NCBI RefSeq assembly: GCF_900090235.1
Contig: NZ_LT607750.1
Coordinates: 1,252,501 to 1,316,500 of the forward strand
DNA length: 64,000 bases
Direction: 5' to 3'
Source of the DNA: Micromonospora echinaurantiaca
GTDB taxonomy: Bacteria > Actinomycetota > Actinomycetes > Mycobacteriales > Micromonosporaceae
Part shown: positions 22,926 through 55,210 of the stretch, in pieces
Numbering within the stretch: the first letter of the stretch is position 1
How the letters are laid out: every line of letters begins with the position of its first letter
Notes under the pieces: generated by a model
What the model was told of the DNA's origin: nothing
The model's input: only the letters and a program-made list of their open reading frames with translations
Database searches by the model: none
Position numbers and translations under genes: made by a program

Positions 22926-24113
22926 ATGGACGCGGTCGAGGTAGCGGTCGACGAGATCGTCCTCGGGGCGCCCGACGCCCGGCTGCGGCCCTTCGTCGAC
23001 CGCTACATCGGCTATCGGGAGCGGGCGGCGCTGCCGCTGGTCCGCCGCGAGGTGGCCGGTGCCTTCGTGGTGGTCATCCTCGGCTGGGGCGCCCCGCTGG
23101 ACGTGGTCGACCCGCGGGACGCCGCCCGGGGCGCCCACGCGGTGGACTCCTTCGTCGCCGGCACGTTCGACGGCCCCTGCACCACCCGCCTGGTCGGCGT
23201 CGGCGAGGGGGTGGAGCTGCTGCTGGCCCCGTTGGCCGCCCGGCGGATCCTCGGCCTGCCACTGGCCGAACTGACCAACCGGGCGGTAGGGGTGGCGGCG
23301 CTGCCCGGTGGCTGGCTCGACCGGCTCCGCGTCCGGCTGGCCGTCGCCGCCGACTGGCCGGCCCGGTTCGCGCTGCTCGACGCCGCGTTGGCGGCCCGGC
23401 TGGCGGCCACCGAACCGGTCGACGCGCGGCTGGCGTGGGCGTGGCGGCGGCTCGCCGAGACCGGTGGCCGGGTCGCCGTCGGCGCCCTCGCCGGCGAGCT
23501 GGGGTGGAGCCGTCGGCACCTCGCCGCCCGGTTCCGCGACGAGGTCGGGCTGACGCCGAAGACCACCGCGCGGCTGCTCCGCTTCCAGCGGGCCTACGCG
23601 ACCCTGACCGCCGGGTCGGCCCTCGCCGTCGATCCGACGGCCGCTCGGGGCGTCCAGAGCGGCGTGACCGACCAGAGCGGTGCGACCGGCCTGAGCGGTG
23701 CGACCGGCCTGAGCGGCGTGACCGGCCAGGGCGGCGTGACCGGCCTGAGCGGTGCGACCGGCCTGAGCGGCGTGACCGGCCAGGGCGGCGTGACCGGCCT
23801 GAGCGGTGCGACCGGCCTGAGCGGCGTGACCGGCCAGGGCGGCGTGACCGGCCTGAGCGGTGCGACCGGCCTGAGCGGTGCGACCGGCCTGAGCGGCGTG
23901 ACCGGCCAGAGCGGTCAAGGCGACCCGGGCGGCGCGACCGGCCAGCGCGGCCCAGGGGGTTCGGGCGGGTCCGCCGGTCCGCTGCCGGGCGGCTGGGCCG
24001 AGATCGCCGCCCGCTGCGGGTACTACGACCAGTCCCACCTGATCCGCGACTTCCGGGAGTTCGCCGGCGACACCCCGACCGCGCTCGGGTCACATTCGTC
24101 CAATCCGGGGTGA
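22926..24113 (+). CDS. AraC family regulator with a collagen-like Gly-X-Y insertion inside its DNA-binding domain
   Basis: 395 residues. The N-terminal part (about 1-185) is a ligand-sensing domain typical of AraC proteins paired with VOC genes (LRPFVDRYIGYRERAALPLV, PCTTRLVGVGEGVELLLAPL). The first HTH is VAVGALAGELGWSRRHLAARF with the linker helix LTPKTTARLLRFQRAY. The second HTH is WAEIAARCGYYDQSHLIRDF with the conserved FAGDTPTAL end. Between the two HTH units, residues 245-328 are 14 six-residue repeats (SGATGL, SGVTGQ, GGVTGL), followed by a looser Gly-rich run to about residue 352. Normal AraC proteins have about 10-15 residues there. The VOC gene 24 bp downstream is the likely co-transcribed partner. 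Confidence 0.85.
   Translation: MDAVEVAVDEIVLGAPDARLRPFVDRYIGYRERAALPLVRREVAGAFVVVILGWGAPLDVVDPRDAARGAHAVDSFVAGTFDGPCTTRLVGVGEGVELLLAPLAARRILGLPLAELTNRAVGVAALPGGWLDRLRVRLAVAADWPARFALLDAALAARLAATEPVDARLAWAWRRLAETGGRVAVGALAGELGWSRRHLAARFRDEVGLTPKTTARLLRFQRAYATLTAGSALAVDPTAARGVQSGVTDQSGATGLSGATGLSGVTGQGGVTGLSGATGLSGVTGQGGVTGLSGATGLSGVTGQGGVTGLSGATGLSGATGLSGVTGQSGQGDPGGATGQRGPGGSGGSAGPLPGGWAEIAARCGYYDQSHLIRDFREFAGDTPTALGSHSSNPG
23658..23909 (+). repeat. 14 x 18-bp in-frame tandem repeat inside the AraC gene
   Basis: Exactly 252 bp made of 18-bp units of the form AGCGGTGCGACCGGCCTG and variants. A higher-order 54-bp period (SGATGL-SGVTGQ-GGVTGL) is repeated three times. The copies are nearly identical at DNA level, which suggests recent expansion; any change in copy number would keep the frame. 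Confidence 0.95.
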
Positions 24114-24137
24114 CCGGGCCGGCGGCAGACTCGGGGC

Positions 24138-24506
24138 ATGCGAACCATCTATCCGATCTTCCGCTACCCGGACGCCAGCTCAGCCATCGACTGGCTCTGC
24201 GCCGCCTTCGGCTTCACCGTGCACGCCCGGCACGACGCGCCCGATGGTTCGGTCGCCCACGCCGAACTCACCCTGGACACCGGCATGATCATGGTGGGCG
24301 AGCTGCCCGACCCGCGACCCCGGCCGGGGGACGAGGACTGGTCGGTCTACGTGGCGGTCGACGACGTCGACGCGCACTGCGCCCGGGCCAGGTCGGCCGG
24401 CGCCGAGATCGTCCGGGAGCCGTTCGACACCGACTACGGCTCCCGCGACTACACCGCCCGTGACCTGGCCGGCAACGTCTGGTCCTTCGGCACGTACCGG
24501 CCCTGA
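24138..24506 (+). CDS. VOC family (glyoxalase/bleomycin resistance-like) protein
   Basis: 122 residues, one VOC module: PIFRYPDASSAIDWLCAAFG at the N terminus, HAELTLDTGMIMVGEL, and the second beta-alpha-beta unit VYVAVDDVDAHCARARSAGA ending with RDYTARDLAGNVWSFGTYRP. VOC proteins isomerise, dioxygenate or merely bind small molecules; no metal-ligand set could be assigned firmly. It follows an AraC-type regulator by 24 bp, a recurrent pair in actinobacteria in which the regulator and the VOC protein probably respond to the same compound. Confidence 0.85.
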   Translation: MRTIYPIFRYPDASSAIDWLCAAFGFTVHARHDAPDGSVAHAELTLDTGMIMVGELPDPRPRPGDEDWSVYVAVDDVDAHCARARSAGAEIVREPFDTDYGSRDYTARDLAGNVWSFGTYRP

Positions 24507-55039: not shown

Positions 55040-55183
55040 CTCGCCGACCAGGCCGGCCTGGCCGATCGGGTCGGGTTGGCCGATCGGGCCGGCTTGGCTG
55101 ACCGGGCCGGCTTGGCCGATCGGGCCGGCTTGGCTGACCGGGCCGGCCGGGGCGATCGGGCAGGCCTGGCCGACCTGGGCAGC
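55040..55183 (+). repeat. 8 x 18-bp minisatellite downstream of uvrA
   Basis: Eight 18-bp units of the form TTGGCCGATCGGGCCGGC; units 3-6 alternate between GCCGATCGG and GCTGACCGG versions, and the ends are degraded. It starts 21 bp after the uvrA stop and lies in a 377-bp stretch without a recognised gene. The frame would encode LADRAG repeats, but no start codon or ribosome site supports translation. Confidence 0.85.
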
Positions 55184-55210
55184 CTGGCCCGCTCGGACGA
55201 CGCCTGCCGG

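Follow-up and report, generated by a model that had tools for sequence, protein, structure and literature searches.

An AraC-type regulator of Micromonospora echinaurantiaca with a collagen-like tandem array between its two helix-turn-helix motifs, and a conserved putative operator before the adjacent VOC gene

The window, i.e., the whole stretch of 64,000 nucleotides of the Micromonospora echinaurantiaca chromosome that was analysed, encodes an AraC-type regulator in which the loop leading from the linker helix to the second helix-turn-helix motif (HTH2) contains an in-frame, collagen-like tandem array. We consider it quite probable that the protein is functional and controls the downstream VOC gene as an AraC-family regulator, with an insertion-tolerant loop and one compact operator. 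According to this reading, the inter-HTH loop would tolerate insertions, and recent slippage or unequal recombination would have multiplied a pre-existing Gly-X-Y-rich loop in steps of 18 and 54 bp. The loop so lengthened would bulge out as a mostly disordered tether of a length nearly neutral for DNA binding, so that HTH1, linker helix and HTH2 would still meet on one compact operator of 17-18 bp. This operator would directly adjoin the -35 region of the VOC promoter, from which a leaderless transcript would start, and the DNA-binding domain placed there would act on that promoter.

The regulator is carried by a genome assembled as a single contig of 7.2 Mb (coordinates in Table 1). Both of its HTH motifs fit profiles of the AraC/XylS family, Pfam HTH_18 aligning to residues 188-239 (profile positions 1-51 of 80; 51.5 bits, cut-off 33.6) and HTH_AraC to residues 357-386 (positions 11-39 of 42; 37.7 bits, cut-off 26.6), and a linker helix follows HTH1 in the AF2 model. 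The profile match is interrupted by about 120 residues; contiguity is typical of the family without defining it, and we therefore call the protein a variant member. Elsewhere in the genome HTH_18 matches 29 times, each time as one stretch of 207-243 bp with no such insert. The match to DUF6597 at residues 15-121 falls just under the cut-off (24.5 bits against 27), and the N-terminal domain may, to judge from its family, sense a ligand.

Table 1. Features of the regulator gene and of its surroundings, in window coordinates.
Feature	Position	Strand	Evidence
AraC-type regulator, 395 aa	22926..24113	+	ORF list; Pfam HTH_18 and HTH_AraC above cut-off; relatives
N-terminal cupin-like domain (DUF6597-like)	22968..23288	+	Pfam DUF6597; AF2 beta-rich; Foldseek cupin matches
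HTH1 (residues 185-206)	23478..23543	+	AF2 helices 185-192 and 196-206; block pLDDT >90
Linker helix (residues 211-233), intact	23556..23624	+	AF2 helix 211-233; P0060 equivalent 210-229
Expanded inter-HTH loop (residues 234-356)	23625..23993	+	Alignment and loop tables
Tandem array, 14 x 18 bp, collagen-like Gly-X-Y	23658..23909	+	TRF and unit-by-unit cutting
Three identical 54-bp higher-order units	23712..23873	+	Sequence; TRF period 54
Degenerate continuation of the array	23910..23951	+	TRF rows ending at 23951; sequence
HTH2 (residues 357-386)	23994..24083	+	Pfam HTH_AraC 357-386; AF2 helices 357-363 and 369-380
Conserved box GTCACATTCGTCCAATC, putative operator, overlapping araC 3' end	24089..24105	+	Core in 41/41 parsed loci
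-10-like hexamer CAGACT, 6 nt before VOC ATG	24126..24131	+	ATG-anchored column counts, 41 loci
VOC/glyoxalase-fold protein, likely target gene	24138..24506	+	Pfam Glyoxalase, 62 bits

The initial annotation had described an in-frame array of 14 units with a glycine at every third residue, flanked by intact HTH motifs and able to change its copy number without loss of the frame, and all of this agrees with our results. Unit-by-unit cutting and TRF resolved the array into 14 units, each exactly 18 bp long and each in frame 0 of the regulator gene, namely six SGATGL, four SGVTGQ, three GGVTGL and one SGVTDQ; the unit length is a multiple of three, so that copy number can change while the frame is kept. 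The Gly-X-Y pattern is unbroken over 27 triplets (residues 252-332) and continues in a looser form to about residue 352, proline being absent from all 14 units, and Pfam and AF2 both recover HTH1 and HTH2 on either side. Units of the same type are identical in DNA, so the expansion looks recent, and the super-unit SGVTGQ-GGVTGL-SGATGL is present in three repeats with zero differences. TRF scored the array at 369-462 across three rows, whereas the top score elsewhere was 290 in 400 kb sampled at 20 places of the same chromosome. Membership in a dispersed repeat family was considered and rejected, since the genome holds no close second copy of the array (the next DNA match is 71% over 131 bp) and since a 15-mer of the unit, with two mismatches allowed, matched the genome 305 times, the array's own matches included, against 520 times for the reversed control. 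Another 18-bp tandem array was found by TRF at 55043-55189 of the window, with about eight copies of GCCGATCGGGCCGGCTTG, a unit unlike that of the regulator; it is apparently non-coding and directly follows a gene that we take to be uvrA-like.

AraC proteins are usually regarded as having two rigidly joined HTHs, and the repeat was at first thought to have been inserted into the joining helix itself. The AF2 models place it elsewhere. In a short-loop relative (P0060; mean pLDDT 92.7), a linker helix at residues 210-229 is followed by an eight-residue loop and by HTH2 from residue 238, and in the model of the window regulator helix 211-233 and HTH2 (357-380) are kept, with the insert between them. 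As modelled, the insert thus stretches the loop after the linker helix, and the rigid helix is unbroken. The pLDDT is below 50 at residues 233-249 and 318-349 and reaches 80-86 over residues 261-310, where the model shows a regular beta pattern with an 18-residue period. Foldseek aligned the DNA-binding domain of the P0060 model with DNA-bound AdpA (TMt 0.78) and AraC (0.75), and its whole length best with ToxT. Among the 50 matches listed for the full window model, given without aligned ranges, CuxR came first and ToxT second; they were AraC-type and cupin proteins, none attributable to the array.

Loops were measured in 120 proteins, namely the window regulator and 119 of the 120 relatives listed out of 554 protein matches, P0106 being excluded because it lacks HTH2. 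Organism-labelled relatives are all Micromonospora, the genome sets searched contain one genome per species, and no protein nearly identical to the window regulator is found among the 120 relatives listed of the 554. The comparison of orthologues that had been suggested at the outset brought out loops that differ in length between species, from 10 to 131 residues with a median of 23, the window regulator having the longest; they are rich in alanine (22%), glycine (21%) and proline (13%). A tandem repeat is detectable in nine of the 120 loops, the window regulator included, against 18 of 2400 shuffled loops, the detection being weak in P0037, P0005 and P0035. Repeat lengths in the loops of other lineages are 5, 7, 8 or 13 residues, with units such as GPSSP (P0056), DAEAPGG (P0003), AAGAPGG(D/E) (P0027), SASGAGQ (P0025) and a 13-residue unit (P0076), compared to SGATGL here. 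These units are unlike one another, which argues for separate gains of the repeats. A quick tree built without the loop, in which 45 of 117 inner branches have less than 80% support, requires at least six changes of repeat state and at least 11 between long and short loops, counts that do not distinguish gain from loss.

The nearest listed relatives, P0001 and P0002, have loops of 48 and 39 residues devoid of the array. They nevertheless contain 8 and 5 Gly-X-Y triplets, numbers that 500 shuffles attained in 0.0% and 0.4% of cases, respectively, whereas at least five triplets occur in only three of the 120 loops, so that the run is not kept in relatives generally. Most simply, the Gly-X-Y bias is older in the clade formed by these three proteins, the array being younger than the divergence from P0001. 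A long loop rich in Gly, Ala and Pro is thus a wider theme, the collagen likeness being peculiar to this clade. Loops may differ considerably between closely related cores, since the window regulator and P0001 are 93% identical in their cores and have loops of 131 and 48 residues, and P0003 and P0005, both labelled M. costi, also share 93% core identity with loops of 84 and 69 residues. P0100 (Micromonospora rosaria) carries its long Gly/Pro-rich insert ahead of HTH1 and not between the HTHs, so that a second domain edge also accepts inserts of this kind in the clade.

Downstream of the regulator, a conserved box faces the VOC gene. Among the 59 best-scoring loci, removal of 15 duplicates left 44 distinct loci, of which 41 could be parsed, the others being L013 (which ends at a contig edge), L086 and L098. 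The core TTCGTCCAA is present in all 41 parsed loci and the full 17-mer GTCACATTCGTCCAATC in 27; L086 and L098, read separately, both carry the core, L098 being altered just before it. The core precedes the VOC ATG by 34 nt in 32 loci, by 33 nt in five and by 35 nt in four. For 18 loci, that of the window among them, the box is part of the araC coding sequence and specifies SHSSNP, or a similar peptide, at the C-terminus; in the other 23 it is located 7-108 bp past the araC stop, and the conservation is therefore of the DNA itself. The core and its spacing are alike for loops of 26-144 residues, as counted in these 41 loci from an anchor nearer HTH1 than the one used for the range of 10-131 residues given above. 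The commonest letters at positions -12 to -7 from the ATG read CAGA(A/C)T, the single best letter being found in 25-32 of the 41 loci and the alternative position showing A in 17 and C in 15, which suggests a leaderless VOC transcript with the box abutting its -35 region. Position and co-occurrence point to the box as the putative operator of the window regulator, and its fixed distance from the promoter in all 41 loci makes the VOC gene the likely target, as first proposed. The two HTHs were never seen in separate frames, lying in one frame in 41 of the 44 distinct loci and in L086 and L098, L013 being cut by the contig end. A gene that we presume to be uvrB is next to araC in 57 of the 59 loci, duplicates included, the other two being at contig edges.

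The box follows the regulator across the genus. An exact 13-mer of it matched 62 of the 71 genomes with an orthologue match versus six of the 89 without (160 Micromonospora genomes), and in 59 of these 71 it is no more than 1 kb away from the araC match. In G007, one of those with the 13-mer and no orthologue match, a more distant AraC match stands about 0.2 kb away. Of the 12 other genomes with an orthologue match, G009 has the 13-mer at the border of a different contig, on which an HTH2 piece is also found, and four have one-base variants of the box beside araC (L012, L088, L098 and L100). For the last seven (G076, G111, G127, G129, G135, G169 and G182), weaker loci that we considered in addition to the 59 best ones and together with the known case G124, the best match beside araC differs at one or two positions and is followed by an ATG after 33-35 nt. 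The loops of these seven are short (27-34 residues), so that the altered boxes are not those of long-loop proteins. A family-wide promoter pattern was found at 16 places in 13 of 61 genomes, compared to three places in three genomes for the reversed control. In the genome of the window, the 16-mer of the box has a single match with up to two mismatches besides the box itself, TCACATTCGTGCAACC at G000:C1:4649569-4649584 (- strand; two mismatches), which is possibly a further target site. Similarly, exact copies of the 13-mer occur far from araC at G076:C1:510890-510902 and G127:C1:368931-368943, possibly as further targets or by chance.

Distant relatives provide weaker support for the box, a box-like core being present near araC in only six of 19 loci. 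In L023, L025 and L026 (other families) and L062 (another genus), the core is followed 33-35 nt on by an ATG that is a candidate gene start, and in L028 and L063 such an ATG lies at other distances. Several of these loci have another ATG or GTG nearby, and the loop is legible as short only in L023, L026 and L063. A core TTC(G/A)T(C/T)CAA is found near the araC 3' end in L023, L025, L026, L062 and L063, that is in other families and perhaps in another phylum, L063 being labelled as a Proteobacteria MAG. Such cores hint that the regulator-operator pair may be old.

Both HTHs appear constrained. Over the 41 pooled loci, pN and pS are 0.13 and 0.40 for HTH2 and 0.15 and 0.35 for HTH1. The divergence of HTH2 from the consensus is 0.096 in the 29 proteins with loops of at least 40 residues versus 0.140 in the 69 with loops below 25, whereas that of HTH1 is 0.143 and 0.154, respectively. 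HTH2 divergence thus drops with loop length (Spearman -0.28, n = 120; the rows are related and a p-value is not a fair test). We rejected a relaxation of HTH2 in long-loop proteins on this opposite trend, which among related rows amounts to no sign of relaxation. Between the window regulator and its nearest relative (L051), dN/dS is 0.28 up to the linker helix (226 codons), and HTH2 shows four changes (two synonymous, two not), too few to prove selection after the expansion.

Among the 120 listed relatives, one, P0106 (Micromonospora sp. NPDC048935), has lost HTH2, and its regulator is fused in frame to the VOC protein. The box apparently still lies 34 nt before the VOC start, as deduced from the protein. 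In some members HTH2 may hence be dispensable, which fits the report that HTH1 alone suffices for tight binding by Rob (PMC8279559).

Some of these observations count against the preferred reading of a working regulator with a disordered, insertion-tolerant loop. Taken at face value, the AF2 beta pattern is a folded module; the 13-mer stands far from araC in two genomes and occurs in six without an orthologue match; a box-like core is found near araC in only six of the 19 more distant loci; the few HTH2 changes leave selection unproven; and P0106 seems to keep the box spacing without HTH2.

It is also conceivable, but rather unlikely, that loop length is a tuning knob, as the initial annotation had proposed, although here on one compact operator; it would set the entropic cost for HTH2 of reaching this operator, copy number then adjusting affinity and VOC expression. 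In favour of it, the unit is a multiple of three, identical same-type units suggest a recent expansion, and loops differ between cores that are 93% identical. In Rob and MarA, moreover, binding can depend chiefly on HTH1 (PMC8279559), and by analogy HTH2 engagement could be modulated. On the contrary, the box and its promoter spacing do not change together with loop length. We give a similarly small chance to the broader proposal of an evolvable length dial, by which lineages would repeatedly grow in-frame minisatellites that alter the ease with which HTH2 joins HTH1 on a near-invariant operator, resetting VOC expression while operator and recognition helices remain untouched.

A folded insert, whose 18-residue period (3 x 6) would form a small beta-solenoid or a collagen-like triple helix with a role in oligomerisation or docking, is improbable. 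It would account for the confident strand period over most of the array, for a Pfam Collagen score of 31.6 bits above the cut-off of 27.2, and for the 27 unbroken triplets, with the 8 and 5 of the two nearest relatives being more than shuffling gives. However, AF2 is reported to yield confident but unreal beta-solenoids on near-perfect repeats (PMC11795689). This bias may explain the pattern, on which we therefore do not build, and the report is no disproof of a folded module. Collagen was moreover put at the centre of the initial annotation, a view that loses ground since in other lineages this loop carries units of 5, 7, 8 and 13 residues, which would not be expected to share such a fold and make a collagen or solenoid function unlikely. 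The scarcity of loops with at least five triplets and the lack of proline in the units point the same way, as do NCBIfam collagen adhesin models, which score 25.6-31.6 bits against cut-offs of 325-500.

Binding of HTH1 and HTH2 to separated half-sites by means of the long tether, as was also envisaged at first, is very improbable, and we rejected it for this promoter: some 120 residues would be physically long enough to bridge such sites, but the core and its distance to the VOC gene are alike with loops of 26 and 144 residues, and the search with the whole 16-mer found only the one further match. Scarcely credible is a decaying gene or an assembly artefact, for which the fused P0106 might be quoted and against which stand the open frame, the conserved HTH2, the dN/dS of 0.28, the retained box and the single-contig assembly of 7.2 Mb; a pseudogene was rejected.

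At the level of titles and abstract openings, with subscription literature mostly outside the search and absence thus unproven, we found no such arrangement in papers on AraC loop insertions, tandem repeats or Micromonospora repeats, and no paper on this regulator-enzyme pair among those on AraC-VOC pairs and their operators. Since the loops range naturally from about 10 to 131 residues while the box that they face and its distance stay nearly the same, these relatives lend themselves to asking how much rigidity the AraC fold requires. The box also offers a candidate operator for the regulator-enzyme pair, and in some members of the genus it falls within the araC 3' end.

The window regulator resembles several known systems and departs from each. 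Like the AraC/XylS regulators (AraC DNA-binding domain, 2k9s; AdpA DNA-binding domain with DNA, 3w6v; ToxT, Rns and CuxR), it has two HTHs and a linker helix, whereas a tandem array lengthens its loop from this helix to HTH2 to about 120 residues. In MarA and Rob, two HTHs face an A-box and a B-box (PMC8279559). The window regulator also has two HTHs, and the likeness is a mechanistic analogy only. We know of no long inter-HTH loop in MarA or Rob. As in the bacterial collagen-like proteins Scl1, Scl2 and Lcl, its Gly-X-Y run is uninterrupted and Pfam Collagen exceeds the cut-off; unlike them, it is a DNA-binding regulator without proline in its 14 units and far below the NCBIfam cut-offs, and other lineages use non-triplet units. 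Finally, similarly to coding tandem repeats of bacteria such as Legionella, its in-frame units are able to vary in number, whereas its array is located inside a DNA-binding domain and the variation seen here is between different proteins of the genus only.
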